This document shows positions 21,010 through 36,722 of a stretch of 36,722 nt of DNA, one piece after another. The position numbers and the translations under genes are program-made. The DNA is from Fermentimonas sp. Lineage in GTDB: Bacteria > Bacteroidota > Bacteroidia > Bacteroidales > Dysgonomonadaceae. Where the stretch lies: positions 1-36,722 of the forward strand of contig JAQVXD010000025.1 of the NCBI GenBank assembly GCA_028709385.1, written 5' to 3'. How positions within the stretch are numbered: the stretch's first letter is position 1; every line of letters starts with the position of its first letter. The notes under the pieces are model-generated. The model saw only the letters and a list, made by a program, of their open reading frames with translations, was not told the origin of the DNA and searched no databases.

Positions 21010-21477
21010 TTACCATATCATTACAATTCGGAAATTATAATTCTGCCTGGCATTTTGATCTTGAAAACCGTCGGACGGTTCTATACAGAATGTAACTCTG
21101 TTTGTAAGGTGGCTATATTCAAAACTTATCGTTTCAGTAAAATCAATTTGACCGCCTTGACCATCATCTTCAAGAAAACTTCTGATATAGGGAAGTGGCA
21201 CCTGAACCTCATCAACATCCTGAGTTCCGAGGAAAACAAACCCTATAACAGCTCCGCTCTCATAAATAAAATCATCGATATATTCTAATTGTCTGACAGC
21301 TTCCCATCTATTCAGGTTTGAGTTCCAGCTCCATTGTGAAGCAGTTACACTGTGGTTTTCTACATTCCATGATGTTTCTACAAAGTCATCGCTTTTATCA
21401 CTGCAAGATGTCATTATAAAAGCTGTACCCAATAATAATATCCCTGCAAACAACGATATGAATAATTTTCTTTTCAT
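21010..21477 (-). CDS. Hypothetical lipoprotein, paralogue of the next gene
   Basis: A 155-residue predicted lipoprotein: MKRKLFISLFAGILLLG leader with lipobox Cys25 (MTSC). The frame runs 24 codons further upstream but without a signal peptide, so the start at 21477 is chosen. The mature part has SWNVENHSVTASQWSWN, a FIYESGAVIGFVFLG strand, VPLPYIRSF, IDFTETISFEY and the end NYNFRIVMIW. The gene at 21657-22253 has the same order of blocks (NWEIINLTVEQADWVWN, FIYEQGAQLGYVFIG, KLLPYVDTY, VYFTETISVDY, YNFRIVLIW). I do not recognise the family; a single beta-rich domain is likely. It is separated from its paralogue by a terminator. Confidence 0.75.
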   Translation of the reverse strand: MKRKLFISLFAGILLLGTAFIMTSCSDKSDDFVETSWNVENHSVTASQWSWNSNLNRWEAVRQLEYIDDFIYESGAVIGFVFLGTQDVDEVQVPLPYIRSFLEDDGQGGQIDFTETISFEYSHLTNRVTFCIEPSDGFQDQNARQNYNFRIVMIW

Positions 21478-21578
21478 AATTAATAAGTATTGAAAATTGT
21501 TAGTTGAAAGTAAGACCTGTAAAATCATCTTTCGTTTAATATAAAACAATAGTTTTGAAGAATAGTTTTAATAAAAAA

Positions 21579-21621
21579 AGCTACTGCCTATTAAATAATC
21601 AAATATAATCAGGCAGTAGCT
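21579..21621 (-). terminator. Intrinsic terminator after the longer lipoprotein gene
   Basis: AGCTACTGCCT (21579-21589) pairs with AGGCAGTAGCT (21611-21621), 11 base pairs around a 21-base A/T loop. The A tract at 21572-21579 gives a T run on the minus strand. It lies 36 bases beyond the stop of the gene at 21657. Confidence 0.78.
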
Positions 21622-21656
21622 ATTAAATATAGGTGAAAAGTTTACAAATATTTAAA

Positions 21657-22253
21657 TTACCAGATCAAAACTATCCGAAAATTGTATAATTGAGGAGCAT
21701 CCGGATCTTTTGCAAGTTGAGAATCCTTAATAAAAAATGCAACTGTGGAAGGATTTCCAAATTGATAATCAACACTTATTGTTTCGGTAAAATACACGGG
21801 GTTACCAAAATCATCATCCCCTGCATAATATGTATCAACATATGGCAGTAGTTTTTGCACCTCATTTACTCCTTGCTCACCTATAAAAACATAACCCAGC
21901 TGAGCTCCCTGCTCATAAATAAACTCTGTAAGTTCCGGCATATCAAAGATTGCCTCCCATTGCAGCGCATTCTCATTCCATACCCAATCTGCCTGTTCTA
22001 CAGTAAGATTTATGATTTCCCAGTTAGTGAATTCAAGACTGTTGTTGTTTTTGTTAATAGCATCGTCTATTAACTTTTGAATCTCTGTTTGACTTAACCC
22101 GTTAGAAGGGTTTTGATCCCTTAAAGCTTGCTCAATCATTCTTCTGGCTTCAGCTTCAGTTATGTAGTCATCTGGGACTGAACAAGCAAACCCTCCGAAC
22201 AATAGTGAAAATATCACGATTAAGATCAATAATGATTTATACTTATTACTCAT
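21657..22253 (-). CDS. Hypothetical lipoprotein with the same domain plus an N-terminal helix
   Basis: A 198-residue predicted lipoprotein (lipobox GFAC, Cys24). After the lipid anchor there is a charged helical section, residues 30-73, rich in Glu, Arg, Gln and Asn (EAEARRMIEQALRDQN, QTEIQKLIDDAINKNN), which could be a short coiled coil or stalk. From about residue 75 it shares the domain of its neighbour, ending YNFRIVLIW. It starts 6 bases after the DUF937 gene, so those two form an operon. Function not known. The pair looks like a tandem duplication in which one copy gained or lost the stalk. Confidence 0.75.
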   Translation of the reverse strand: MSNKYKSLLILIVIFSLLFGGFACSVPDDYITEAEARRMIEQALRDQNPSNGLSQTEIQKLIDDAINKNNNSLEFTNWEIINLTVEQADWVWNENALQWEAIFDMPELTEFIYEQGAQLGYVFIGEQGVNEVQKLLPYVDTYYAGDDDFGNPVYFTETISVDYQFGNPSTVAFFIKDSQLAKDPDAPQLYNFRIVLIW

Positions 22254-23071: not shown

Positions 23072-23220
23072 TCAGTAACCTGGAATCTTAATAATTAAAC
23101 ATATATTTCAAAAGTAGATTAGTTAATTTTCCATTTAAACTTAATAAAAAACATGAAGTAACCTGTTAGTAAACATAGTTTTTTTGTTGCTTTAATAAAT
23201 ACTTCAGAAAACATTATTTT

Positions 23221-24681
23221 ATGGCAATTCATCCGGTAGATATTTTAATACTATTCATTTTCATATTAGGTACTTTCTTATTTGGTCTTTCTTTTGTTAA
23301 GAAAAATAAGAATGTAAGTGATTATACCAGTGGAGGAGGTAATGTTCCCGGATTTGTAGTAGGGATGTCTATTTTTGCTACCTACGTTAGTAGTATAAGC
23401 TTTCTGGCTTTACCCGGAAATGCATATTCAAGTAACTGGAACTCATTAGTATTTAGTATCTCTATACCATTAGCAATTATTATTGCAGCAAAATATTTTG
23501 TGCCATTTTATAGAAATATTAGTAGTATTTCTGCATATAGCTTTCTGGAAGAAAAATTCGGATACTGGGCCAGAGCATACACAGCAGTGTGCTATTTACT
23601 TACACAAATTGCCAGGATTGGATCGGTTTTATTTTTACTGGCTCTGGCTTTGAACTCAATGCTGGGATGGAGTATACCCTTAATTATCGTTATAACAGGA
23701 GTAATTGTAGTTATATACTCTACATTAGGTGGTATTAAAGCCGTATTGTGGAATGATGCTGTTCAGGCTACTATATTGATATTTGGGGCAATTGTATGCG
23801 CAATTATTCTTATTGTCTCTTTACCGGGAGGATTTAATCAGTTCATATCGGTTGGAAAAGAATTTGATAAATTCTCCCTGGGATCATTAGGCACAGAACT
23901 TAATATGCCAACATTTTGGGTAACATTAATATATGGTTTGTTTATCAATTTGCAAAATTTCGGGATAGATCAGAATTACATTCAGCGATATAAGAGTGCA
24001 AAGAATGATAAGAGTGCAAGATCATCTGCTCTTTTTGGAGGATTGTTATATTTACCTGTTAGTTTCTTATTTTTTGTAATTGGAACTGCTTTGTTTGTAT
24101 ATTATAAATCTCAACCAGAAATATTACCTGAAGGCATTGCCAGCGATCAGGTGTTCCCCTACTTTATTGTACATGGCTTACCGGTTGGAGTTACAGGTAT
24201 GCTAATTGCTTCAATCTTTGCTGCTGGAATGAGTACTCTTTCGACAAGTATAAATAGTTCTGCCACTATTATATTGACAGATTTCTTTGAACATAAAAGG
24301 AAGAAACCTCTAACAGAAAAATCGAGAATGAAGATACTTTACTCGATATCGCTGTTAGTTGGTATTCTTGGAATAGGAATTGGTTTAGCAATGATGTCGG
24401 TTCAAAGTGCTTTAGACGCTTGGTGGAGTATGGCTTCAGTTTTTAGTGGAGGAATGTTAGGACTGTTTCTATTGGGTTACTTTTCAATCAGGTCTAAAAC
24501 CATCAAGAGTTCTCATGCCCTTTTTGGTGTGATTGCCGGAGTTTTATTTATTTCTTGGCTTTCATTAAGTGGTCAAACTATACTTCATAATTATCTAGCC
24601 GTAGTATTAGGTACGATTATTATTTTTATAATAGGTTTTCTTGCCAGGTTTGTTTTTCCAAAAAAACAGAAATCAATTTAA
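23221..24681 (+). CDS. Sodium:solute symporter, SiaT/NanT-like (SSS family)
   Basis: A 486-residue inner-membrane protein with about 13 helices, in the LeuT-fold SSS family that imports solutes with Na+. The first helices resemble the Na+/sialic acid transporter SiaT of Proteus: GGGNVPGFVVGMSIFATYVS (38-57) and SSISFLALPGNAY (57-69), followed by an arginine in TQIARIGSV (Arg132) at the place of the SiaT arginine that holds the sugar carboxylate. The glutamine SiaT uses for substrate appears to be replaced near residue 79. The sodium-site helix reads AAGMSTLSTSINSSATI. Substrate is therefore probably a sugar acid but not certainly Neu5Ac. It precedes the SusC gene by 348 bases on the same strand. 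Confidence 0.85.
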   Translation: MAIHPVDILILFIFILGTFLFGLSFVKKNKNVSDYTSGGGNVPGFVVGMSIFATYVSSISFLALPGNAYSSNWNSLVFSISIPLAIIIAAKYFVPFYRNISSISAYSFLEEKFGYWARAYTAVCYLLTQIARIGSVLFLLALALNSMLGWSIPLIIVITGVIVVIYSTLGGIKAVLWNDAVQATILIFGAIVCAIILIVSLPGGFNQFISVGKEFDKFSLGSLGTELNMPTFWVTLIYGLFINLQNFGIDQNYIQRYKSAKNDKSARSSALFGGLLYLPVSFLFFVIGTALFVYYKSQPEILPEGIASDQVFPYFIVHGLPVGVTGMLIASIFAAGMSTLSTSINSSATIILTDFFEHKRKKPLTEKSRMKILYSISLLVGILGIGIGLAMMSVQSALDAWWSMASVFSGGMLGLFLLGYFSIRSKTIKSSHALFGVIAGVLFISWLSLSGQTILHNYLAVVLGTIIIFIIGFLARFVFPKKQKSI

Positions 24682-25029
24682 AATTACATAATTACTTTTC
24701 TTAACCTATATAGGTAAATTGTATCGTTTCTTATATACATAAGTATAAGTGTACATAATACTATTTTAACATTACAAAATCATTGTTAAATGCCACATTC
24801 AGCATATAAACTACATTATAACTGTAGTTTATAATTAACATAAACAGATCTAATCATGTCAATATTCCATCAATTTTGAATAATATTTGAGTTGTTTAAT
24901 GGTATTTATATATGGAATTTTGCTTTGACTAAAAAGCTCGTAAAACTAAAATAGTCGATCTGTTTTTGATAATATTTAAGGTTTAGCGTAAAATTAATCG
25001 AATATATATTGTAATACTCACTTAATAAT
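24682..25029. other. 348-base gene-free region between symporter and SusC
   Basis: A/T-rich, no open reading frame. It holds the palindrome ACCTATATAGGT (24704-24715), a strong hairpin (24805-24833), and a 9-base inverted repeat, AAACAGATC (24842-24850) with GATCTGTTT (24957-24965). Between those arms is a weak promoter candidate: GTTG (24891-24894), 20 bases, GAATTTTG (24915-24922). No clear terminator with a T tract follows the symporter gene, so read-through into SusC is possible. Confidence 0.6.
24805..24833. repeat. 10-base-pair inverted repeat upstream of SusC
   Basis: TATAAACTAC (24805-24814), 9-base spacer, GTAGTTTATA (24824-24833), perfectly complementary. No T tract follows on either strand, so it is better read as an operator or RNA hairpin than as a terminator. 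Center is about 210 bases before the SusC start. Confidence 0.5.
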
Positions 25030-28000
25030 ATGAATTCTATGGATAATAATTTATTTAAATTCATTCAAACAGGAATATTTCTGTACCTATCTGTTCCGAT
25101 ATTTGCTCAGTTGCAAGTTAGTGGAACAGTGAAAGATAACTACGGAGAATCGCTTCCCGGAGTGACAATATTAGTAAAAGGAACCTCACAAGGAACAGTT
25201 ACCGATATAGACGGAAGTTATTCATTGAGCGTGCCCGGCACTCAGTCGGTTCTAGTATTTTCTTTTGTAGGTATGGAAACTATTGAAGTTAATATAGACG
25301 GAAGATCTGTAGTGGATGTTGAATTAGTATCTTCTTCAATTGCAATTGAAGAAGTTATAGTTACAGCGCTTGGTATTTCTCGTGATAAAAAATCACTTGG
25401 CTATTCTATAGCGGAAGTTAGAGGAGACGAACTTAAGAGAGTTGCACATGAGAATGTTTTAAACTCTCTGGCAGGTCGAGTTGCCGGGGTTGCGATTAAC
25501 TCTACAGGTGGGCCAGGATCATCGGTAAGCATGGTAATACGTGGTGCTACTTCATTAACAGGAGACAATCAGCCTCTATTTGTTGTAGATGGTGTTCCGC
25601 TTAATAACACTTTGAGTAATGTAGGAGGTGTAGGAGACAGAAATAATGTAGACTATGGTAATGCCGTTTCAGATATTAATCCTGAAGATATTGAATCAAT
25701 TTCTGTTTTAAAAGGGCCAAGTGCAGCAGCTCTTTATGGTTCAAGAGCCGGCAATGGTGTAGTTCTGATAACTACTAAGTCTGGCAAGGGTAGTAAAGGC
25801 TTAGGCGTATCAGTAACATCTAATACCGTATTTGAGACCCCCTATAGTTTTGTTAAAACTCACAACATGTTTGCAAACGGACGTCGCCCATATACTCATG
25901 AAAACAGACCCACAACAGGCTTACCATACTATCTGGTTCCAGCAGCAGACTCATATTGGGTTGGTCCCGAATTAGATAAAGGTATGATGGGTTATGTATG
26001 GCCCTATTTTGATGAAAATGGAGATTTAAATCCTCAGGAGTTAGTTTCACACAAGGATAATTACAAGCATTTTTTCAGAACCGCTATAACTTCACAAAAT
26101 GGGGTTTCGCTAACTAACGATACAGAAAAATTAAACTATAGACTATCTTACAACAATATGGCAAACAGAGGTATGATACCTAATAGTGATTTGCAGCGAA
26201 ACTCTGTAAACCTTACCTCATCGTTAAAGGTTGTGAACAAAATAACTGTCAACTCTAGTATAAATTTCACATCATCTGGTGCTGGAAACAGACCTGCTGG
26301 TGATAGAGGAGCAAATCCAATGGAACAGGTTGTTAGAGGAGTAAACCCTTCTGTAGATATCAGAGACTTGAAAAACTATTGGGAACCTGGACAAGAAGGT
26401 TTAATGCAGAGAGGATTATATAATTTAAATGTTCATCCAGATGGAACATATTCTAGAGGTGACATGGTTGATAATCCATATTTCCTGGCAAATGAGGTTA
26501 ATAATGGTTTTAGACGAGACAGGCTGTATGGAAGTGGCCAGATTGAATGGCAAATAAATAATGATTTTGCATTCATGGCAAGATATTCACACGATCAGTT
26601 TCAGGAAAAAAGAGAAACTAAAATGGCACCAAGCTATTCACGTGATGCCAATGGTGTTTATGGAATTTCTAATATATACTCGAGAGAACAAAATGCCGAC
26701 TTCTTATTTTCATACAACAAGCAAAATGAATTCATTAGCATAAATGCTTCTTTAGGGGGCAATTACATGTATCAGTATGCCGAGAACAGCTATGCTAAAA
26801 CAAAAAATAGAGGAGGAGGATTAATTGTACCTGGTGTATATACATTAACAAATATTGCCCCCGATAATCTTGATTATGGATCAAGTTCTTCACAAAAAGG
26901 TATATATAGTTTGTATGGATTGGCTTCATTTGGATTTATAGATGCAATATATTTGGATTTAACGGCAAGAAACGACTGGTCGAGTACCCTCCCCGTAGAG
27001 AATAGATCGTACTTCTATCCGTCTGCTTCGCTTAGTCTTTTAATGAACAATTTGGTTGATATGGGAGACCATGTTTCATTAGCCAAGTTAAGAGGTGGAG
27101 TTGCTATGACGGGTAATGATACTAGCCCTTACAGATTACTATCGGTGATGGGTAACCAAGGAACGTGGGGTAATGAAATACGACTTTCGACCTCTGGCAC
27201 AATGCTTCTTCCCAACCTAAAACCTGAAATTCAAAGATCATGGGAAATTGGTGCTGATATATCTTTTTTCCAAAATAGGTTGAGATTTGATGCTACTTAC
27301 TATATACTTGATAATGAAAATCAAATATTGGGTATTGGACTACCCCCGTCGTCAGGATACAACTCACGCCAGATTAATGCAGGTAAACTTCAGAGTAAAG
27401 GAATAGAACTTACATTGGGTGGCACACCTATTTCTAGGGATGACTGGGAATTAGATTTAAATTTTGTTTTTACAAGAAACAGAACATCTATACTTGAACT
27501 TTCTGAGGGATTTGACTATCATGTATTATGGACAGAAGCTAATGCAGGAGCAGTAACAAGGGTTGGCGAAGAGATAGGACAATTAGTATCTAGAGTTGTC
27601 ACAAGAGTAAACGACCCTTCATCTGAATATCATGGATGGCCATTAAAAAGTGCATCAGGAACTTTAATTAGAGACGACTGGCAAAACTATATGGACCCGG
27701 GTGATAAGACTGCAGTTATCGGTAATTTTAATCCAGATTTTCAAATGGGAATGCAGACATCGCTATCGTATAAGAATTGGCGATTGAATGCAAGTTTTGA
27801 CTGGAGGTATGGTGGACAATTTATCTCTCAAACAATGAGATATATGGAGTCGGATTACCTTACACAAAGATGGATTGACAGAGCACTAAACCTAAACCAT
27901 ATGAGTGGAAGCGAAATAGCGCAATTTTTGAAAGATAACAAAGATAAATATCTCTCACCCGACGGAATGTTTTGGCCTGTAGTGGGTGGACCTACAACGG

Positions 28001-28443
28001 CAACGGGTGGATTTGAGCACACTGAAGATGGTATAACGTTAAACGACGGAATGTTTATACCGGGTGTAGAAGGTTACTACGATGAAAATGGAAAGTTTGT
28101 AATGGTAAAAGAGCAACTGGGTGATTCAGGTACTCCAATAAACAGATGGCAAAATTCATTTGGCTGGGATTATGGACAAACCGCAATGTTTGATTCAGAT
28201 TTCATTAAACTAAGAGAGATATCGCTTACTTACCAAATACCAAAAATTGATATCATAGGTATTAACCAACTTGCTGTTTCGGTATATAGTAGAAATATTA
28301 TGCTGTGGACAAAAGCAAAGATAAATGTTGACCCTGAGACTGCTTTTCAACCAACAGGTTCTTCTTTTATGCAAGGTATTGAAAGATATAATATAACTCC
28401 CTGGTCTATACCATTAGGTATTAAATTAGACGTAACGTTTTAG
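25030..28443 (+). CDS. SusC/RagA-family TonB-linked outer-membrane transporter
   Basis: The outer-membrane barrel of a SusCD pair, which moves glycan or peptide fragments into the periplasm using TonB energy. The 1137-residue precursor has a signal peptide (to about residue 30, IFAQ), a carboxypeptidase-D regulatory-like domain (QVSGTVKDNYGESLPGVTI to VDVELV, residues 33-107), a TonB-box-like EEVIVTALG, then the plug with VMIRGATSL-type motifs and DINPEDIESISVLKGPSAAA, and the 22-strand barrel ending KLDVTF. There is no extra N-terminal signalling (STN) domain, so it does not itself drive an anti-sigma/ECF pair. Met4 (25039) is an alternative start. Its SusD partner begins 38 bases later. Confidence 0.95.
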   Translation: MNSMDNNLFKFIQTGIFLYLSVPIFAQLQVSGTVKDNYGESLPGVTILVKGTSQGTVTDIDGSYSLSVPGTQSVLVFSFVGMETIEVNIDGRSVVDVELVSSSIAIEEVIVTALGISRDKKSLGYSIAEVRGDELKRVAHENVLNSLAGRVAGVAINSTGGPGSSVSMVIRGATSLTGDNQPLFVVDGVPLNNTLSNVGGVGDRNNVDYGNAVSDINPEDIESISVLKGPSAAALYGSRAGNGVVLITTKSGKGSKGLGVSVTSNTVFETPYSFVKTHNMFANGRRPYTHENRPTTGLPYYLVPAADSYWVGPELDKGMMGYVWPYFDENGDLNPQELVSHKDNYKHFFRTAITSQNGVSLTNDTEKLNYRLSYNNMANRGMIPNSDLQRNSVNLTSSLKVVNKITVNSSINFTSSGAGNRPAGDRGANPMEQVVRGVNPSVDIRDLKNYWEPGQEGLMQRGLYNLNVHPDGTYSRGDMVDNPYFLANEVNNGFRRDRLYGSGQIEWQINNDFAFMARYSHDQFQEKRETKMAPSYSRDANGVYGISNIYSREQNADFLFSYNKQNEFISINASLGGNYMYQYAENSYAKTKNRGGGLIVPGVYTLTNIAPDNLDYGSSSSQKGIYSLYGLASFGFIDAIYLDLTARNDWSSTLPVENRSYFYPSASLSLLMNNLVDMGDHVSLAKLRGGVAMTGNDTSPYRLLSVMGNQGTWGNEIRLSTSGTMLLPNLKPEIQRSWEIGADISFFQNRLRFDATYYILDNENQILGIGLPPSSGYNSRQINAGKLQSKGIELTLGGTPISRDDWELDLNFVFTRNRTSILELSEGFDYHVLWTEANAGAVTRVGEEIGQLVSRVVTRVNDPSSEYHGWPLKSASGTLIRDDWQNYMDPGDKTAVIGNFNPDFQMGMQTSLSYKNWRLNASFDWRYGGQFISQTMRYMESDYLTQRWIDRALNLNHMSGSEIAQFLKDNKDKYLSPDGMFWPVVGGPTTATGGFEHTEDGITLNDGMFIPGVEGYYDENGKFVMVKEQLGDSGTPINRWQNSFGWDYGQTAMFDSDFIKLREISLTYQIPKIDIIGINQLAVSVYSRNIMLWTKAKINVDPETAFQPTGSSFMQGIERYNITPWSIPLGIKLDVTF

Positions 28444-28481
28444 TTATTCTGAAATTATTAAACATAAATTCAAAAAAAGAT

Positions 28482-30173
28482 ATGAAAACAATATATAGAA
28501 TAATAATGATGATAGCTGCAGTATCACTCCTATCTTGTGAGGAGTATTTAACCGAGTTGAATGTGAATCCGAATGGAGTAGACCCGGCAATTGTGAATCC
28601 AAACCTTTTGGTTCCTACTGTCATTGTATCAACAGCATACCCTTATCTTGAGATGAACTACAACGGTCATGCCGCAGGTGTAATGCAATATGTACAGTTA
28701 AGTGGCTGGAGCGATCCTTTAAACAACTATGCTTGGAGAGAACAAAGAAATTGGGATAACTTGTACTCAACCCTAAGAGATATAAAACATCTGTATACCA
28801 GGTCTGTTGAAGAAAATATGGAGTTTCATCAAGGATTAGCACTAGTGATTAGAGCTTTTAACTTTGGTTATATTGCCGACACATGGGGTAATGCTCCATA
28901 TAGCGCTGCTCTTAATGCACTTGAAGGTGGACAGGAAGATTATTTCCCTGTCTTTGACTCACAAGAATCTATATACAGAGGCATTATTGAGGAGTTGAAA
29001 ACAGCGAATACCATTTTATCAAAACCCGCTTCTGAATACACCAGTATTAGGGCAAGTTCAGACATTCTGTATAATGGTGACCCCATAAAATGGAGAAAAT
29101 TTGCAAACTCTTTAATGCTGAGATATTATATGAGGGTATCATCAAAACTACCAGAATATGCAAAAACCGGTATTGAAGAAATAATTTCTAATCCAAGTCA
29201 ATTTCCAATATTCACTTCAAATGATGATGATGCAGCAATGGGAATGATTGGGTCATCTAGTGGCGATTCTTGGCCTGCTACTGTAGCTTTTGACGCAAGC
29301 GAAAGCAACTTCGATAGAATACAGCTCTGCGCTGGCTTTAGAGATGTTCTGGTAGATAATAATGATCCAAGGTTAAACGTGTGGTTTAATAAGGTTAGAA
29401 TACCTATAAAGGTGTCAAGTGCCTATGGCGACGATGAAATAGTTGGTGGAGTAAGATATCTGCATCCCGATCATATTGAATCTAACAATATGGTAATATA
29501 CAATAAAGAGACTTGGATTGCCGATACCGAAGCAGGTAAAGTTTTGATTGATACTATGGATTATGTTGGTATTCCTATTGCATTCCGTAGAGGTGACGGA
29601 TCACCATTCAACCTTAATCCTTTTCCAATTCAGGGAGGACCAAATGTTCATAGTTCAGCATTATCAGACATGTACAAAAATGCACAAGGAGGTATGCTAA
29701 AAGCAAGAATGGTTACATATACTGAGGTATGTTTTATACTTGCTGAGGCTGCACAAAAAGGGTGGAATGTGGGTGCTCAAAAGGATTGGTATGAGAAAGG
29801 TATAGAAGCCTCGTTAAACACCTATGGAGTTGGAAGCAGTTTATCATCGTACCTTAACGAAGACGGAGTTGCTTATGATGGTTCGTTAGAGCAGATCATG
29901 ATTCAGAAATGGATTGCCAACTGGACAATTGCTCATGAGTCGTGGTGCGATTGGAGGAGAACTGGCCTGCCAAATTTAGATGTAGGTACGCAGGGGTTAA
30001 GAGCTGCCATGCCTTTAAGATATCAGTATGGAGGTAATGAAATTTCAAGGAATAATGAAAATTACAGAAATGCAATTACCGATTTACAGCAAACCGATTT
30101 TACAGAACAAGATGGAAACGATAGCGCTTGGTCTAAATTCTGGTTATTGCAAGGAACTGGTAAGCCATACTAA
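28482..30173 (+). CDS. SusD/RagB-family outer-membrane lipoprotein (SusD-like_2 type)
   Basis: The surface lipoprotein lid of the SusCD complex. The 563-residue protein has a lipobox with Cys19 (SLLSC) and begins EEYLTELNVNPNGVDPA, the hallmark opening of the SusD-like_2 subgroup. TPR-type helices follow, with LALVIRAFNFGYIADTWGN (split at residue 120), the conserved AxxxR..YF.LVxxWGD-like SusD helix, and later CFILAEAAQKGWN. The C-terminal IAHESWCDWRRTGLPNL is typical of this subgroup. Directly downstream of SusC (38 bases) and followed by a strong hairpin at 30185-30214. The ligand is not deducible from sequence alone. Confidence 0.94.
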   Translation: MKTIYRIIMMIAAVSLLSCEEYLTELNVNPNGVDPAIVNPNLLVPTVIVSTAYPYLEMNYNGHAAGVMQYVQLSGWSDPLNNYAWREQRNWDNLYSTLRDIKHLYTRSVEENMEFHQGLALVIRAFNFGYIADTWGNAPYSAALNALEGGQEDYFPVFDSQESIYRGIIEELKTANTILSKPASEYTSIRASSDILYNGDPIKWRKFANSLMLRYYMRVSSKLPEYAKTGIEEIISNPSQFPIFTSNDDDAAMGMIGSSSGDSWPATVAFDASESNFDRIQLCAGFRDVLVDNNDPRLNVWFNKVRIPIKVSSAYGDDEIVGGVRYLHPDHIESNNMVIYNKETWIADTEAGKVLIDTMDYVGIPIAFRRGDGSPFNLNPFPIQGGPNVHSSALSDMYKNAQGGMLKARMVTYTEVCFILAEAAQKGWNVGAQKDWYEKGIEASLNTYGVGSSLSSYLNEDGVAYDGSLEQIMIQKWIANWTIAHESWCDWRRTGLPNLDVGTQGLRAAMPLRYQYGGNEISRNNENYRNAITDLQQTDFTEQDGNDSAWSKFWLLQGTGKPY

Positions 30174-30184
30174 TAATTTTATCT

Positions 30185-30214
30185 GGGCAGCTAATAATTA
30201 ATAATTAGCTGCCC
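30185..30214 (+). repeat. Strong intercistronic hairpin after the SusD gene
   Basis: GGGCAGCTAAT (30185-30195), 8-base loop, ATTAGCTGCCC (30204-30214), a perfect 11-base-pair GC-topped stem 11 bases after the SusD stop. It is followed by CAATTATTC, not a T tract, so complete termination is unlikely; it may protect the SusCD message or partly reduce downstream transcription. Confidence 0.6.
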
Positions 30215-30243
30215 CAATTATTCAAACAATAAAACAAGTGATT

Positions 30244-32454
30244 ATGAAACTATTAAGACACAGCATTTTAATCTTTATCCTTTTGTTGATTGCCTCACCT
30301 GATGTAGTCTCTGACAACAAAAAGCAAGTTCATGAGGACACCCTTTTTACACAAGATTACAGCATAAAATACTATTTTAATATGCCCGAAGTAAATCTTT
30401 TGAAAGTGGTAACAGACAGAAATGGTAAAATACAAATATTAAGTTCAGAGGGACTAATGCACACAAGTGCAGGTGCATTCCTCTATCCGGGAATAATTGT
30501 AAAAGACAATACAGCTCGTACTTTCAGCAGAAAAGAGTTTGCAGATTTATCTCTTCTGCAAGATCAATTTATCTATCTTGACAATGAGGCTGTATTGAGC
30601 AATGCATGGGCAGGAAAATTATTCTCGAAACATAGCATGCCTGATGCTAAATTATTTGCCATTGCAGATGATTTCACTTCTTTAATTTCATCAGGTAGAA
30701 ATTTGAAGTTGATTAAAGATTCCAAAGAATTATGGCAAGGTACAACTAGTAATAATATTATTGATATTAAGTATGTCCCTGCTACAGGTAAGTTTTGGAT
30801 TCTTACCTCGTCTACTCTACTAAGCCTATCTACAGAAAAGAATGAATTACATACAATTTTTAAAGGCGATGATTTCACTTCATTCGACATTACTTCATCG
30901 GGTAAGAAAGCAATCATTGGAAGCAAAAATGGATATTTTGAAGTTGATAATAATACAGGAAATCAATTAGGAGATAAAAGAAAAGAACTTCCTGTACAAG
31001 AAATAACTGCCGTGAAAGTAATAAACGGCAATGTTTGGTTTGGATCTTCACAAGGAGCATTCATGTTAAGAGAGGATAATAAATTCAACTACTATTACGG
31101 CGAAAGATGGCTCCCAGGAGAAGAGGTTAAAGATATTGCTAAAGGCCCAGAGGGCTCGGTTTTAATTTTAACAGACAGTGGACTTGGTCAGATCTGTTTT
31201 AAAGAAATTACATTGAAAGATAAAGCTAATTTTTTTGAGAAGCAGGTTCGCATTCGTCATATACGAAATGGGTTTAACTCAACATTGAGTGGAATGACGA
31301 GGGGAGATCTTTCAACCGGCTTCCTTTCTGACTCTGATAATGATGGACTTTGGACTTCGATGTATCTAGGTGGTCAGGCATACAGATATGCAGTAACCGG
31401 ATCGGAAGAAGCTTTACAAAACATAATAGAATCTCTGGATGCAATGGAGAGGTTATACACTATTAATCCTATTCCAGGATTTCCTTCACGTTCGTTTGAA
31501 AGGAGTGGATACATAGATGTTCTCTCTGATCCTGAGAGATGGCAACATTCAAATGATCCTGAGTGGGATTGGAAAGCAACCACAAGTAGCGATGAGGCAA
31601 TTGGTCACGCTTTTGTTTTTGGAGTTATTGCCGAATTAATTGAGGTAGATTCAATTCGCAATAAAGCTATAGAATTACTCGATGATATGATGCAACATAT
31701 TGTGGAAAACGATTGGTATTTGATTGATTATGATGGAAAACCTACTACATGGGCTAGATGGAATCCTGAGTATGTAAACGGCTTCCCAACTTCTATAGGC
31801 GACAGGAAGTTAAACAGTTCTAACATTATCTCTATGCTTCAAACTGCCTATTATTTCACTAATAAAGAAATATATAAGGAAAAGGCTTTTGAATTAATGT
31901 ATGACTATGGATATCTTGAAAACTTGATGCGCCCAATGTCTGAAATAGGTAAAGCTCCAGAAGGAGCAGATGAGTGGGCTCACATGCTATCATCTTCGTG
32001 GAATCACTCAGATGATGAGATGTATTTTCTGGGATATTGGGGACTTTATCGTTACGCATTTGACGATAAGCTTAAAAACATGTTTAAGGAGAGTATAATC
32101 GACCACTGGGAGATTGAACGTCCTGAAAAGGATGGTTTATGGAATCTGTTCACCGCTATGGTTAGTGATGAATATGACCTTGATGAAGCCATTTGGTATC
32201 TACAGGAATATCCAATGGATTTGATTAATTGGAGCGTTAAGAACAGTCATAGAAAAGATATAAATACTGTTCCGGAAAACTTCAGAAGGCAAACAATTGA
32301 AGAGGTTCTTCCTCCCGATGAATTACAAATTAGGCGACATAACGCTAATCGATTCGGACTTGATGGTGGATCTAATGGAAGCTCAGAAAATAGTGCCGGA
32401 GATATATGGTTGTTGCCTTACTGGCTAGGAAGATATTTAGAAGTTATAAAGTGA
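30244..32454 (+). CDS. Secreted protein with beta-propeller-like N-terminus and alpha/alpha-toroid-like C-terminus, unknown function
   Basis: 736 residues counted from the ATG at 30244; the in-frame GTG six bases earlier is not favoured. A signal peptide (MKLLRHSILIFILLLIASPD) is present. Residues ~45-330 are short repeated beta segments with phrases such as GKFWILTSSTLL, SSGKKAIIGSKNGYF and NGNVWFGSSQGAF, as in regulator-type beta-propellers. From residue ~335 the sequence is helical with paired aromatic helices: SDSDNDGLWTSMYLGGQAYR (362-381), ATTSSDEAIGHAFVFGVIAE (near 444), TTWARWNPEYVNG (near 500), SSWNHSDDEMYFLGYWGLY (near 583). This resembles six-hairpin (alpha/alpha) glycosidase or lyase folds, but I know no family for it. 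Likely a carbohydrate-active or binding protein of the SusCD locus. Confidence 0.75.
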   Translation: MKLLRHSILIFILLLIASPDVVSDNKKQVHEDTLFTQDYSIKYYFNMPEVNLLKVVTDRNGKIQILSSEGLMHTSAGAFLYPGIIVKDNTARTFSRKEFADLSLLQDQFIYLDNEAVLSNAWAGKLFSKHSMPDAKLFAIADDFTSLISSGRNLKLIKDSKELWQGTTSNNIIDIKYVPATGKFWILTSSTLLSLSTEKNELHTIFKGDDFTSFDITSSGKKAIIGSKNGYFEVDNNTGNQLGDKRKELPVQEITAVKVINGNVWFGSSQGAFMLREDNKFNYYYGERWLPGEEVKDIAKGPEGSVLILTDSGLGQICFKEITLKDKANFFEKQVRIRHIRNGFNSTLSGMTRGDLSTGFLSDSDNDGLWTSMYLGGQAYRYAVTGSEEALQNIIESLDAMERLYTINPIPGFPSRSFERSGYIDVLSDPERWQHSNDPEWDWKATTSSDEAIGHAFVFGVIAELIEVDSIRNKAIELLDDMMQHIVENDWYLIDYDGKPTTWARWNPEYVNGFPTSIGDRKLNSSNIISMLQTAYYFTNKEIYKEKAFELMYDYGYLENLMRPMSEIGKAPEGADEWAHMLSSSWNHSDDEMYFLGYWGLYRYAFDDKLKNMFKESIIDHWEIERPEKDGLWNLFTAMVSDEYDLDEAIWYLQEYPMDLINWSVKNSHRKDINTVPENFRRQTIEEVLPPDELQIRRHNANRFGLDGGSNGSSENSAGDIWLLPYWLGRYLEVIK

Positions 32455-32527
32455 TAAAGTTCTATTTTACCAGCTCTAATTATTTTTAAACATATGTACA
32501 CTATTAAACATTATTACAGTTATTTAT

Positions 32528-34312
32528 ATGAATATAATTGAGTATTACTTAAGGTATATTCTCGTTACAACTTTATCCCTTTTGGTGATTGGTTGCTCTT
32601 CTAATTACTCCGAAGAGGCAGGTAGTGTAGATGAAGTGATGAACAATGTAGTTACAAGATTGTATTCTAGCTTGAACGAAGAAGAACTTCTTACATTAAA
32701 GCAAGAAAACCTTTTATCTTATTTCAGTGTAGAAGAGATTGATATTCTTTCTAAACGACATTGGGTATTTGAAGTAAATAGGCCTGTAGTAGTATCATTA
32801 ATGAGGAGTAAAAGACAAGAGGTGGCACCTTTTTGGCTCGAGAAAAGTGGATTTATAAAGACTGATTTGGAAATAAAGAATGAAAATCAATCTTATGAGA
32901 TTTGGCAAAAAAACTTTGAAGCAGGAAAAATTGAACTTGGTATAAATGGGTTTGAGAATTTCACTTATCACTACTTTGTTTCTATAGAACCTCAGGACAG
33001 TAGCAAAGATCTGGAAATTGTAAGTATAACTCCTGAAAATCAACATATGACGCAATTAGATATTGGAGCATTCACATACCACGATTGGACAGAACTTGTC
33101 CTTGAAGAAGTACCCGAGATTATGAAGGGACAAGTTTTACTAACAACAATACGAGGACGTGGCAAGGAATCACACCTGATTGGTGCATTTAGGAAAACAA
33201 AACATCCATCTTCAGGTATTCCGGATAATGTTTTACTTACATGGAGTTCTGATCCTTCATCCAGTATCGATATACAATGGAGAACCAACACTTATGTTAA
33301 AGAAGGGGAGGTAAAGTATCGAGAAATTAACAGTGATAAAGAGTTGAATGTTTCTGCCGAAAAATATGTAATGGAAGATAGAGAGCTAATTAACGACAGG
33401 TTTATACATAGGTTTTCTGCCAAGATTAATAATTTGAAGTCAGGAAAGAAATACTTATACCTAATAGAGCCAGAAACGGATTGGAACAACGCTCGCCATT
33501 TTACTACAGCAGGTAACAGTGATTCATTTTCTTTTACTTGGGTAGGTGATGTGCATCAAAAAAAAGAGTTTGCTCTACTACATAACAAAGCTGAGGCCGA
33601 ACATCCGAAAACGTCTTTCTATATTATTGCAGGAGATTTGGTAGATGATGGGCTATACAGAAATCAATGGGATGAACTTTTTGAAAATTCGAAAGAGGTC
33701 ATTGATAAAAAGCCTCTTATGAATGTTCCGGGAAATCACGACAACAGGTATGGTCTAGGTGCTAAAATGTATAGAGATATGTTTAGTTACCCAACTAATG
33801 GTCCTGAAGGAATGCCTAAAGAGCAGACATACTCGTTTAACTATAAAAACACCCTCTTTTTAATGCTGGATGCAACTTCACCCATAGTTAAACAGGCTGA
33901 TTGGATAGAGGATCATTTACAAAAAAGTGATGCAACATGGAAAATTGCTGTGTTCCATTTTCCTCCATATAATGGAGATGAGCCTTATTTGAATATTCAA
34001 GAGCATTGGGTACCGATATTTGATAAATATCAAGTAGATATGGTATTTAGTGGTCATTTTCACTATTATATGCGTTCAAAACCTATGAATAATGGAGTTG
34101 TGACGGACTCTTTTAATAAAGGAACAACATATATAATTTCATTAGGAATTCCAGGACGGAGCGTAGATTTGAATAATGAACCATACGCTGCGGTAACAGA
34201 TCAAAATGGATGGTTATATCAACATATAGAAATTGAAGGAAAGAAGTTAAAATATCAATCGGTAAACTATAATGGAAATGTAATAGACAGATTTGAGATA
34301 ATTAAAGAATAG
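32528..34312 (+). CDS. Lipoprotein metallophosphoesterase with PAP-like N-terminal domain
   Basis: A 594-residue lipoprotein (lipobox Cys23, VIGC). Residues ~40-225 are of unknown type. Residues ~230-330 look like the fibronectin-III-like domain of purple acid phosphatases (NVLLTWSSDPSSSIDIQWRT). The C-terminal domain has the calcineurin-type metal motifs: D341-V-H343, G369-D370-L-V-D373, G402-N-H-D405, His477 in VFHFPP, and G509-H510-F-H512. The PAP tyrosine of GDxxY is Asp373 and DxG is DVH, so it is not a true purple enzyme but a DxH-type phosphoesterase or phosphodiesterase. Substrate unknown; in a SusCD locus it may remove phosphate from a glycan. It starts 73 bases after the toroid gene. 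Confidence 0.85.
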   Translation: MNIIEYYLRYILVTTLSLLVIGCSSNYSEEAGSVDEVMNNVVTRLYSSLNEEELLTLKQENLLSYFSVEEIDILSKRHWVFEVNRPVVVSLMRSKRQEVAPFWLEKSGFIKTDLEIKNENQSYEIWQKNFEAGKIELGINGFENFTYHYFVSIEPQDSSKDLEIVSITPENQHMTQLDIGAFTYHDWTELVLEEVPEIMKGQVLLTTIRGRGKESHLIGAFRKTKHPSSGIPDNVLLTWSSDPSSSIDIQWRTNTYVKEGEVKYREINSDKELNVSAEKYVMEDRELINDRFIHRFSAKINNLKSGKKYLYLIEPETDWNNARHFTTAGNSDSFSFTWVGDVHQKKEFALLHNKAEAEHPKTSFYIIAGDLVDDGLYRNQWDELFENSKEVIDKKPLMNVPGNHDNRYGLGAKMYRDMFSYPTNGPEGMPKEQTYSFNYKNTLFLMLDATSPIVKQADWIEDHLQKSDATWKIAVFHFPPYNGDEPYLNIQEHWVPIFDKYQVDMVFSGHFHYYMRSKPMNNGVVTDSFNKGTTYIISLGIPGRSVDLNNEPYAAVTDQNGWLYQHIEIEGKKLKYQSVNYNGNVIDRFEIIKE

Positions 34313-34338
34313 TAATAGAAACGAAACACTAAGTAAAA

Positions 34339-35193
34339 CTAACTTCTAAACTCCTTTCGGTATTCGGAAGGAGTTTTGTTCATTACTTGCTTAAAGTAAT
34401 GATTAAAATTAGCTAGATTATTATAACCCGACTCATAACAAATTTGGGTAATTTGCTTATCTGTTTCTGCAAGAAGTCGTGCGGATATACCAATTCTTAC
34501 TCTCTTTACATATTCCATAAATGTTTGATTGGTTTTCTTTTTAAAAAACCTGCAAAAAGAGCTTGGCTCCATATATACCAAGCTTGCGGCTTCATTTAAA
34601 TTGATTCCGTTTTCAAGATTTTGAAATACATATTCGTATATTTTGTCTATATGCTCCCTGTCTTTTTCGTTGTTTTCTGGTACTGCAGAGGGTAAAGCTA
34701 ACAATTTACGTTCATCAATTGATAGAAGCAGGTTAAATACATTAAGCATTTCAATATACTTTTCGAGCCCCTTCAAACTATTCATTCTTCTTAATGAATC
34801 GGCAGCTTCTGCTGCTATATCTCCAGTAAACTGTATGCCATACTCAGCTTGTTTTAGCAAATTAACTACACCTTCTAATTCGGGGATATTAAAAAAGTCT
34901 GAGACAAGAATATTTTCATAAAAATGAGTCACCACACACTCACCGTGACCATCTGAACCTGGTTCAATAACTTCCCAGCAATGAGAGATATTTGGTCCCA
35001 ACAGCACCATATCACCAGGAGCATAACTTGAAATATTACTGCCAACAATTCTCCTGCCAAAACCAGATGTTATATAATTCAGTTCAAAATTTTTATGAAA
35101 ATGAATCTTGTCAGAGTGTGGATCCATTTTCATCGTTCTTGTTATGAATGAATTGTTGTGAGGTACATCTATTTTCTCGTAAACAAATCGCAT
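34339..35193 (-). CDS. AraC-family transcriptional regulator
   Basis: A 284-residue regulator. The N-terminal half is a cupin-type sensor domain: DKIHFHKNFELNYITSGFG (residues 28-46) and SSYAPGDMVLLGPNISHCW (55-73). The C-terminal ~100 residues hold two helix-turn-helix motifs: NLNEAASLVYMEPSSFCRFF-type first helix pair and QITQICYESGYNNLANFNHYF, followed by TPSEYRKEF, the standard AraC/XylS end. It sits on the minus strand between the metallophosphoesterase and the Asp-box enzyme and diverges from the latter across 153 bases that contain inverted repeats. It is the likely regulator of the locus; the inducer is probably the sugar released by it. Replaces the more usual hybrid two-component or SusR regulator. 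Confidence 0.93.
   Translation of the reverse strand: MRFVYEKIDVPHNNSFITRTMKMDPHSDKIHFHKNFELNYITSGFGRRIVGSNISSYAPGDMVLLGPNISHCWEVIEPGSDGHGECVVTHFYENILVSDFFNIPELEGVVNLLKQAEYGIQFTGDIAAEAADSLRRMNSLKGLEKYIEMLNVFNLLLSIDERKLLALPSAVPENNEKDREHIDKIYEYVFQNLENGINLNEAASLVYMEPSSFCRFFKKKTNQTFMEYVKRVRIGISARLLAETDKQITQICYESGYNNLANFNHYFKQVMNKTPSEYRKEFRS
34348..34376 (+). terminator. Possible terminator for the metallophosphoesterase gene, inside araC
   Basis: AAACTCCTT (34348-34356) pairs with AAGGAGTTT (34368-34376), and further inner pairs make about 13 in all, then TTGTT. It lies 36 bases after the plus-strand stop but also codes for the conserved TPSEYRKEF end of the AraC protein, so its symmetry may be coincidental. 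Confidence 0.35.
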
Positions 35194-35201
35194 AATGCAA
35201 G

Positions 35202-35254
35202 CATTTTAACTGTAAAATGTAAATATAAAAACATTTATTTGATTATAAATCAAA
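35202..35254. promoter_or_regulatory. Two inverted repeats in the araC / Asp-box enzyme divergent region
   Basis: CATTTTA (35202-35208) with TAAAATG (35213-35219), 4-base spacer; and TTTGATT (35238-35244) with AATCAAA (35248-35254), 3-base spacer. Both are perfect, about 35 bases apart, directly upstream of the araC start. They are candidates for operator sites of this or another regulator. The region is A/T-rich, which raises the chance of symmetry. Confidence 0.4.
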
Positions 35255-35280
35255 ATTCAATTAATTTAAACCAATATTCA

Positions 35281-35313
35281 TTTATCTTTTCTCTGTTCAA
35301 ATATTTAAATTTG
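35281..35313 (+). promoter_or_regulatory. Likely promoter of the Asp-box enzyme gene
   Basis: TAAATTTG (35306-35313) is a full match to the -7 consensus, with TTTA (35281-35284) as a three-of-four -33 box at a 21-base spacing. The ATG is 33 bases downstream. Confidence 0.42.
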
Positions 35314-35346
35314 TAATTATAATTATTCCTATAAAAATTAACAAAA

Positions 35347-36393
35347 ATGAAGTTGACTTATTTAATCGGTTTTATGATGTCAATTGTTACTCTTTCAGCA
35401 AACAATGAAGTAAAAAATAAAGATGCAGTTGTGAAGTCTGAATTTATTTACTTGCAGAATGATGTTCCTTTTCCAAGCTGTCATGCCTCAACAATTGTTG
35501 AAACCAATGAGGGAATGGTAGCTGCGTGGTTTGGTGGAACACACGAAAAACACCCTGATGTGGGTATTTGGTTGAGTAGAAACACTGGTGATGAATGGAC
35601 AACACCTATTGAAGTTGCCAATGGCATACAACACTCGGGGTTGCGATATCCTACATGGAACCCAGTACTTTTTAATTATGGAGACGAACTTTTTCTTTTT
35701 TACAAAATTGGCCCATCTCCGCAGAGCTGGTGGGGAGCATTTATGACATCAAATGATAATGGTAAATCATGGTCAAGGTCTATTAGACTTCCAGAAGAAA
35801 TCTTAGGTCCCATAAAAAACAAACCCGAACTTTTAAGCAATGGTGATCTCATATGCCCAACAAGCTCTGAACATAACGGATGGCAAGTGTATATGGAATT
35901 CACTAATGACAGAGGAAAAACATGGGAGCGAACTAATCCAATAAACGACGGAGTAAATACAGTTGCTATTCAACCGAGTATACTTAAACATCCAGGTGGA
36001 AATCTTCAGATATTGTGTAGAAGTATAAACAAAAAGATATTAACTGCCTGGTCTGACGATAATGGCAGAACCTGGAGTAATCTTGAACCAATAGATTTAC
36101 CTAATCCAAATTCAGGCACAGATGCAGTTACGCTGAAAGATGGTAGACACGTTTTAGTTTATAATCATATAGAACCTGATTCTGATTGGGGTAATAGAAA
36201 TATTTTGAATATTGCAGTCTCAAATGATGGCTTGAATTGGGCAGCAGCTGCTTTATTAGAGAATGATGAAGACTCAGATGGTGAATATTCATACCCTGCA
36301 ATTATTCAGTCTAAAGATGGAATGATACACATTACATATACCTGGAATAGGAAAATGATCAAATATGTAGTGATTGATCCTTCAAAAATTTAA
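35347..36393 (+). CDS. Secreted Asp-box (BNR) sialidase-fold enzyme
   Basis: A 348-residue protein with a weak signal peptide (MKLTYLIGFMMSIVTLSA) and a six-bladed sialidase-type propeller. Asp boxes (SxDxGxxW) are at 77-84, 135-142, 186-193, 236-243 and, degenerate, at 292-298. Other conserved parts are FPSCHASTIVE (42-52), AAWFGGTHEKHPDVGIW (59-75), YPTWNPVLF (101-109), GPIKNKPELL (154-163) and EYSYPAI (313-319). Databases often label this family exo-alpha-sialidase, but the FRIP arginine motif of GH33 sialidases is absent; PFPSCHA stands in its place. It therefore probably cleaves a different sugar from a glycan. Followed after 241 bases by a NanA-superfamily aldolase gene. Confidence 0.85.
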   Translation: MKLTYLIGFMMSIVTLSANNEVKNKDAVVKSEFIYLQNDVPFPSCHASTIVETNEGMVAAWFGGTHEKHPDVGIWLSRNTGDEWTTPIEVANGIQHSGLRYPTWNPVLFNYGDELFLFYKIGPSPQSWWGAFMTSNDNGKSWSRSIRLPEEILGPIKNKPELLSNGDLICPTSSEHNGWQVYMEFTNDRGKTWERTNPINDGVNTVAIQPSILKHPGGNLQILCRSINKKILTAWSDDNGRTWSNLEPIDLPNPNSGTDAVTLKDGRHVLVYNHIEPDSDWGNRNILNIAVSNDGLNWAAAALLENDEDSDGEYSYPAIIQSKDGMIHITYTWNRKMIKYVVIDPSKI

Positions 36394-36634
36394 TTTTAAC
36401 TGAAGAATTACAAGAAGATCAAATATTTAATTGAAGAATTAGTATTCATCTTAAATTATCAGAAATTATTTAAACTTTTTTTATGCAATAAAATAATTGC
36501 CAAGAAACTAAAAGCTAGGTCAAAATACAATTGAAACAACCCAAATTTTAAGAAGTAAACATCGCCTACATTATATTCATTTGCATAATGAAACCTATGT
36601 GCAAATAAGAGTATAAATTTATACAATCAGAAAT

Positions 36635-36722
36635 ATGAATACTGAAACTATTTTACACGGAATTATACCCCCTCTTGTTACTCCACTTTTAAACGATAAT
36701 GAGTTAGATGAGGAAGGATTAG
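36635..36722 (+). CDS. Dihydrodipicolinate synthase/N-acetylneuraminate lyase superfamily aldolase (partial)
   Basis: Only the first 29 codons are in the window: MNTETILHGIIPPLVTPL, then LNDNELDEEGL. The pattern GxxPPLVTPLxxxxxLDxxGL is the opening of the class I aldolases of the DapA/NanA superfamily, whose Schiff-base lysine lies later, outside the window. Members cleave sialic acid, 2-keto-3-deoxygluconate and related keto-acids or make dihydrodipicolinate. Its place after the sialidase-fold gene suggests sugar-acid breakdown. No clear -7 element is seen in the 241-base gap before it, so it is probably co-transcribed with that gene. Confidence 0.8.
   Translation, partial: MNTETILHGIIPPLVTPLLNDNELDEEGL

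Follow-up and report, generated by a model that had tools for sequence, protein, structure and literature searches.

Which sugar acid is probably released, imported and cleaved by the genes in the right-hand part of contig JAQVXD010000025.1 of Fermentimonas sp. (Bacteroidota; assembly GCA_028709385.1), where a glycan importer lies beside a sialidase-fold Asp-box protein, here called ASP, and an aldolase? The window analysed is the whole contig (C63; 36,722 bases), from an assembly of 2.83 Mb in 128 contigs that is 88% complete. We consider it likely that the cluster is an AraC-controlled polysaccharide utilization locus (PUL) for a glycan bearing a 2-keto-3-deoxy ulosonic acid, in the first place 3-deoxy-D-manno-octulosonic acid (Kdo) or a near analogue; that the sugar is Kdo itself has about an even chance. 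The cluster appears to be related to the Kdo part of the loci for rhamnogalacturonan II (RG-II), a pectin, and to serve a different glycan. Its genes (protein lengths in amino acids, aa) are as follows.

23221-24681, plus strand: sodium:solute symporter (SSS), 486 aa (PF00474, E 5.8e-44)
25030-28443, plus strand: SusC outer-membrane transporter, 1137 aa (TIGR04056, E 4.5e-183)
28482-30173, plus strand: SusD-like binding lipoprotein, 563 aa (PF12771, E 4.3e-74)
30238-32454, plus strand: TOR, a Reg_prop-type propeller with a C-terminal helical domain, 738 aa
32528-34312, plus strand: purple-acid-phosphatase-like lipoprotein, 594 aa (PF00149, E 3.4e-19; PF16656, E 8.6e-12)
34339-35193, minus strand: AraC-family regulator, 284 aa (PF12833, E 1.4e-21)
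35347-36393, plus strand: ASP, an Asp-box (BNR_2) sialidase-fold protein, 348 aa (PF13088, E 1.7e-88)
36635-36722, plus strand: aldolase of the dihydrodipicolinate synthase (DHDPS) superfamily, first 29 residues, truncated at the contig end

The SusC and SusD homologues are adjacent and are accompanied by glycan-active enzymes and a regulator, as in the definition of a PUL. All eight genes named in an earlier, sequence-only reading of this DNA were recovered at their positions from open reading frames (ORFs), Pfam and NCBIfam. Its label of "SiaT-like" for the symporter says more than the data do, with only the superfamily model TIGR00813 passing in NCBIfam. Its "NanA/DapA-type" aldolase holds for the superfamily, as judged from relatives; the 29 residues in the window give no Pfam match of their own. 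They are all that is seen of this enzyme because the window stops at the contig end. The remainder was not found elsewhere in the assembly, either by a PF00701 search or by a search with a relative's aldolase; relatives have the aldolase in full.

The gene order is kept in relatives, a check that the same reading had proposed. A scan of GTDB genomes for ASP gave 154 loci, of which the best 80 were taken; the position of ASP could be fixed in 74 of them. In the nearest loci, from Mariniphaga, Maribellus and another Prolixibacteraceae, the AraC gene diverges from a contiguous run of aldolase, SSS and ASP, and in two Mariniphaga loci TOR and the phosphatase adjoin that core. The AraC regulator of the window is 70-75% identical to the aldolase-adjacent regulator of Mariniphaga and Maribellus. 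Among the placed loci, the aldolase lies at most three genes from ASP in 15 of 74, while SSS is found in 20 and AraC in 9 of the fetched stretches. Sixteen "window-like" loci or genomes (the window included) were hand-picked for relatives of ASP, the aldolase or TOR and are thus a non-random sample; they contain AraC in 15, SSS in 14, the aldolase in 14 (the window fragment uncounted), TOR in 13, a metallophosphatase in 8, a glycerophosphodiester phosphodiesterase (GDPD) in 6, and SusC and SusD in 5. An independent count covered 295 genomes of the order, or 294 without the genome of the window: TOR occurs in 7, ASP in 28 and the aldolase in 18. ASP is present in 12 of the 18 aldolase genomes (p 6e-10, 294 genomes), on the same contig in eight of these 12 (2.5 to 26 kb apart) and on different contigs in four. 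The aldolase is present in 6/7 TOR genomes versus 12/287 others, and the six closest aldolases in 6/7 versus 0/287. The genes of the locus are real and belong together.

Promoter sequences point the same way. A 40-bp matrix was derived from aligned AraC-aldolase intergenic regions (ten distinct sequences from twelve other loci, the window being outside the training set) and was scanned over 73,366 positions of the window, with 200 simulated windows and 200 column-permuted matrices as nulls. Four AraC-type boxes precede genes of the locus, each followed by a TTTG.

36517-36556, plus strand: box before the aldolase, rank 1, score 30.35; TTTG at 36580-36583
23120-23159, plus strand: box before the symporter, rank 2, score 18.6; TTTG at 23183-23186
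24856-24895, plus strand: box before SusC, rank 3, score 10.1; TTTG at 24919-24922
35247-35286, plus strand: box before ASP, rank 6, score 7.8; TTTG at 35310-35313

All four are on the correct strand and within the top six matches, and the score of the aldolase box may be compared with 24.9, the maximum over the simulated windows. With the permuted matrices, the top six matches reached none of the four regions in 155 cases, one in 41 and two in 4. TTTG, the core motif of the -7 promoter element in Bacteroidota, is outside the matrix and occurs in the window at a frequency of 0.0071, and in all four sites it stands exactly 23 nucleotides downstream of the box. The +23 spacing is seen also in locus L153 and in all twelve loci whose box is complete; in L165 the alignment has no sequence at that position, and a box plus TTTG was recovered by scanning. 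The number of such matches is weak evidence by itself (5 in the window, including one within a gene, against a null mean of 1.0 and a maximum of 4 in 200 windows); what carries the case is where the boxes lie, how high the aldolase site scores and how exactly the spacing is kept. Since the four boxes fall within the top six and share this spacing, the aldolase, symporter, SusC and ASP promoters very probably form one regulon, as far as sequence can tell. The co-regulation of SusCD with the Asp-box gene, on which the sequence-only reading depended, is thus favored by a common box upstream of both.

Across 1.56 Mb from 100 other loci, all 17 box-plus-TTTG matches with a score above 20 lie in window-like loci. 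Fourteen precede an aldolase, 12 of these being in the training alignment; at L165 the aldolase was assigned by manual reading of the start codon, the script having named the next gene. The remaining three precede unlinked genes on other contigs, namely a SusC-SusD-TOR-phosphatase run in genome G022, and a TOR paralogue and a GH2 (glycoside hydrolase family 2) gene of the exo-beta-glucosaminidase type in genome G176. Boxes without TTTG at +23 occur at L049 (21.3, upstream of a SusC-bearing strand) and L164:9792 (19.2). Lower matches were seen in RG-II-type loci (L157, 12.5, no TTTG at +23; L166, 5.7), and the highest box-plus-TTTG match outside the window-like loci scored 12.7 (L062). A search for further boxes in the genome of the window gave 15 pattern matches versus 9 for a reversed control, and none was accepted: four were the window sites by construction, the pattern having been written from them, and the other 11 loci, rescored with the matrix, reached at best between -0.7 and 16.9, the top one inside a coding ORF. 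A scan for sigma-70 promoters and terminators gave no more than chance.

The N-terminal helix of ASP reads as a signal peptide. Its AlphaFold model (65 sequences, pLDDT 92.7) is a six-bladed Asp-box propeller with 844 PDB fold matches at E 0.001 or better; the best 50 of these are mostly sialidases (TM by query length 0.66-0.76), and the first is 5hx0, a protein of unknown function. By sequence profile, the nearest proteins are NanB and NanC (GH33) of Streptococcus pneumoniae, with a best E of 4e-13. In the profile alignment, where NanB chain positions were converted by an offset of 11 derived from two NanB chains, Y316 of ASP coincides with the nucleophile Y653, R225 aligns with R557, presumably a member of the Arg triad, and the placement of R284 needs a four-residue loop shift. 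E67 lies opposite the acid/base D270, in GGTH[DE], within a low-scoring piece of the alignment. The roles of Tyr653, Glu541 and Asp270 in NanB are as given in PMC6377674. Y316, E67, Q209, R225 and R284 are invariant in 104/104 ASP rows (111 minus 7 duplicates, with only 3 of the RG-II type). Judged from sequence and model, ASP is not a standard sialidase: this enzyme has the sialidase fold, and both its carboxylate site and its base are changed. We propose that it may be a Kdo-type ketosidase. At L027:11112-13226 (recognized by Pfam) and L029:11095-13242 (by homology), the protein directly after ASP joins a distant Asp-box domain, the second of the locus, to a YdjC-like deacetylase domain.

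Of the aldolase fragment in the window, 18 of 21 residues from GIIPP onward match the Mariniphaga sediminis enzyme. The GxxGE, Tyr and catalytic Lys motifs of Schiff-base aldolases (DHDPS and N-acetylneuraminate lyase (NAL), PF00701) are not seen in these 29 residues and are present in relatives of both the window type and the RG-II type. The sugar-binding motif of NAL includes a Glu that binds O8/O9, according to PMC4016182. The corresponding D-E motif of NanA is lacking in the window-type relatives, and the fragment ends before it. The closest solved relative of the Mariniphaga aldolase is 4xky, deposited as a dihydrodipicolinate synthase (E 5e-89), followed by YagE chains, one of which is named a probable 2-keto-3-deoxygalactonate (KDGal) aldolase. 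At E 1e-60, the RG-II-type aldolase of genome G108 has no PDB match other than 4xky (E 9e-121), which is presumably from B. thetaiotaomicron and has GPEE and GGAN in common with it. Because of this similarity and these motifs, 4xky may have been misnamed and may be a Kdo-type aldolase instead. It has GPEE at the sugar-binding motif like the RG-II type, whereas the window-type aldolases have G[TS]E[IL] there. The comparison with 4xky concerns L159:4706-5623 and L027:7444-8364.

The case for Kdo comes from RG-II. In genomes G108, G208, G019, G064 and G282, relatives of ASP and of the aldolase share one contig, with pectin-type enzymes where scanned, and GH143, the hydrolase for 3-deoxy-D-lyxo-heptulosaric acid (Dha), is found in 5/5 RG-II-type genomes and shares the ASP contig in four of them. 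A 1534-aa protein of G019 (L156:2729-7333) combines a GH78 rhamnosidase, an ASP domain and a xylose-isomerase-like TIM barrel, and in G108 a GH78 rhamnosidase gene overlaps the ASP gene. The best PDB match of the G108 GH143 is 5mqr (E 2.5e-232), and this genome also has a GH141 domain, GH28 and a relative (E 2.6e-135) of 6goc, which we take to be the pectin methylesterase BT1017. The ketosidic sugars of RG-II are two, Dha and Kdo. Side chain C contains Kdo (PMC12168206) and ends in rhamnose (PMC12282258), GH143 removes the Dha of chain D (PMC6811678), and the enzymes named for the degradation of RG-II include a Kdo hydrolase of family GH33 (PMC11214529). As ASP relatives lie beside or are fused to GH78 in RG-II loci, and a separate Dha hydrolase is present in those genomes, Kdo is indicated, and the rhamnosidase-fused ASP relative is best read as a Kdo hydrolase. 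G108 has a second aldolase-symporter pair (L160:2772-8614), with an Fe alcohol dehydrogenase, PdxA and a PF07005/PF17042 kinase, and G208 a second aldolase and symporter (L166:16010-19999) with reading frames similar to those of the G108 pair. Such a set is a candidate for a Dha route, with pyruvate and a four-carbon acid as products.

The catalytic steps, the sugar and the source glycan can be inferred from these data as follows. SusC and SusD would pass a glycan fragment across the outer membrane, and the phosphatase, perhaps with TOR, would trim it. Exported ASP would then hydrolyse the ketosidic linkage through its Tyr in the manner of a sialidase; the free acid would cross the inner membrane by way of the SSS symporter, and the cytosolic Schiff-base aldolase would split it into pyruvate and a sugar (D-arabinose in the case of Kdo). 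FucI-family products can act on D-arabinose, and a FucI-family gene, the only D-arabinose gene searched for, is present in the genome of the window. That such a locus releases, imports and cleaves a sugar acid had been suggested from the sequence, and this suggestion is supported.

Several observations weigh against this explanation, or against Kdo as its sugar. No aldolase is labelled in the fetched stretch of 58/74 placed ASP loci, some of which are short contigs. ASP proper is not next to the aldolase of the window-like loci L153, L164 and L165, where the aldolase or symporter instead has TOR, a short fragment of ASP or a second, distant Asp-box protein as its neighbor. By score alone, the SusC and ASP boxes are not significant (the null maximum has a mean of 9.9). 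ASP has Q209 at the Glu541 position, a Gln in 104/104 rows, and is without the FRIP Arg, the stretch in question reading SCHAST; its activity is for these reasons not certain. The aldolase of the window itself amounts to 29 residues. Window-type aldolases form a clade (support 100/100) separate from the RG-II type (89/96) and have G[TS]E[IL] against GPEE at the sugar-binding motif, and because of this separation and this motif the sugar may differ from Kdo. In addition, the symporters of five window-like loci are on a different branch.

Could the sugar be a sialic acid? A locus for N-acetylneuraminic acid (Neu5Ac) with a diverged sialidase would have SusCD, a symporter, a sialidase-fold protein and an NAL-superfamily aldolase together, as nan clusters do (PMC3969230 for the SusCD pair). 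Nonetheless, we regard this as highly improbable and reject the sialic-acid route, in agreement with the sequence-only reading. NanE (PF04131) was detected in 8/14 control genomes and was not found in the genome of the window (G000), an absence that is not proof because the assembly is 88% complete; of the other enzymes which that reading had missed, an AGE epimerase and NagB, no search was made. Moreover, the FRIP Arg is missing, the Glu541 equivalent is Gln throughout, and the window-type aldolases have I/L where NAL has its O8/O9-binding Glu (PMC4016182). Only a little less improbable is a locus in which ASP is not a glycosidase but a binding or structural protein and the aldolase acts on uronate-derived 2-keto-3-deoxy acids such as 2-keto-3-deoxygluconate (KDG). 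The YagE chains that follow 4xky, one of them a probable KDGal aldolase, would be in keeping with it, but the catalytic Tyr, the carboxylate at the putative acid/base position and the Arg residues of ASP are kept in 104/104 rows, and no uronate isomerase or dehydratase was seen among the locus proteins scanned.

Two variants of the ulosonic-acid explanation and one extension of it concern the source. The cluster may be a part of RG-II degradation moved away from a main RG-II cluster, in line with the relatives of ASP, aldolase and symporter in RG-II-type loci, the grouping of the window symporter with RG-II-type symporters, six GH78 stretches in the genome (off the window contig, GH78 genes lie at C42:36040-44609 and C90:2504-5740) and GH143 in two window-type genomes, G022 and G176. 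We think this unlikely. GH143 (PF24067) was not found in the 88% complete genome of the window, nor in 5/7 window-type genomes searched, versus its presence in 5/5 of the RG-II type; Pfam recognizes no pectin enzyme in the window locus, and the aldolase clade and motif differ. Since the window type has its own aldolase clade and motif and GH143 is lacking in the genome, the source glycan is probably not RG-II. Somewhat better placed, though still doubtful, is another tail-modified ulosonic acid, for example legionaminic or pseudaminic acid (9-deoxy nonulosonates) or 2-keto-3-deoxynononic acid (Kdn). The hydrophobic I/L that replaces the tail-binding Glu and the YdjC deacetylase-like domains in related loci would suit such a sugar; on the other side, the annotated locus proteins include no amino-sugar deaminase or aminotransferase, and the argument is one of residues, whereas RG-II gives a direct link to Kdo. 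As for the glycan, window-like loci hold phosphatases, GDPD, YdjC-like domains, ceramidase-like proteins, GH92 and GH2, and partners in related loci include a box-bearing GH2 of the exo-beta-glucosaminidase type and GH92 mannosidases. With Kdo, phosphate, amide and glucosamine functions together, the core and lipid A of lipopolysaccharide (LPS) would fit by gene content. It is a tentative idea, as doubtful as that of a tail-modified acid, that the regulon feeds on dead Gram-negative cells, namely on the core and lipid A of their LPS, or on some other Kdo glycan that is phosphorylated. In that case phosphatases would strip phosphate, ASP would free Kdo or a tail-modified ulosonate for the aldolase to break down, and partner genes in related loci would dismantle the glucosamine, mannose and amide-linked parts. 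The phosphatase gene was the sole basis for the phosphorylated substrate suggested in the sequence-only reading.

Returning to the other proteins of the proposed Kdo-type PUL, the window symporter is 71% identical to the aldolase-adjacent symporter of G019, a genome with an RG-II-type locus, and clusters with RG-II-type symporters. Neither Pfam (at E 0.01) nor NCBIfam recognizes TOR, and a single-sequence search gave no credible PDB relative. Its propeller resembles the BT4673/BT4663 sensor domains (Foldseek), and a profile search likewise finds the propeller only. Reg_prop is found in 7/7 aligned TOR members, with an E of only 0.61 for that of the window, and the model is weak (mean pLDDT 68, the helical part poorly modelled). 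We propose that TOR may be a glycan-processing enzyme or a binder. In the phosphatase lipoprotein, GDVH, GDLVDD, GNHD and GHFH are taken by us as metallophosphoesterase signatures, and its lipobox is assumed on the same footing. The minus strand at 21010-22253 carries two adjacent lipoprotein-like ORFs that resemble each other in their C-terminal halves; for the second, Pfam gives no match at E 0.01.

Kdo is an invariable component of the Gram-negative cell surface and also occurs in some algal walls, and a search of an open-access library found no paper on a catabolic route for it. With a proposed ketosidase, an importer and an aldolase that match one another in a single regulon, such a route can be tested directly. 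The regulon offers candidates for the Kdo aldolase, and the promoter box can be used to seek the rest of the regulon in other genomes. If the LPS reading is true, the locus would represent catabolic Kdo use outside pectin, and its aldolases would supply genes for Kdo aldolase (EC 4.1.2.23), which to our knowledge lacks an assigned gene.

Among known systems, the nan cluster of Tannerella also contains a symporter, a sialidase and NanA. A SusCD pair in its sialic-acid operon, NanOU, is described in PMC3969230. The window differs from it in that NanE was not found, the FRIP Arg is absent and the aldolase motif is another. NanB and NanC of Streptococcus pneumoniae resemble ASP in having the nearest sequence profile and the sialidase fold; in ASP, Arg1 is lost, the acid/base Asp has apparently become Glu and the base Glu has become Gln. 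In gene content, the cluster resembles the RG-II loci of Bacteroides: relatives of the Asp-box enzyme, the DHDPS-superfamily aldolase and the SSS symporter lie in loci of this kind, so a parallel to the combination is known, contrary to the suggestion of the sequence-only reading that it may be undescribed. The genome of the window differs in that GH143 was not found, and its locus in that no pectin enzymes were recognized; what sets the locus apart from those of RG-II is its own AraC regulator and box, TOR, the phosphatase and a separate clade of aldolase.

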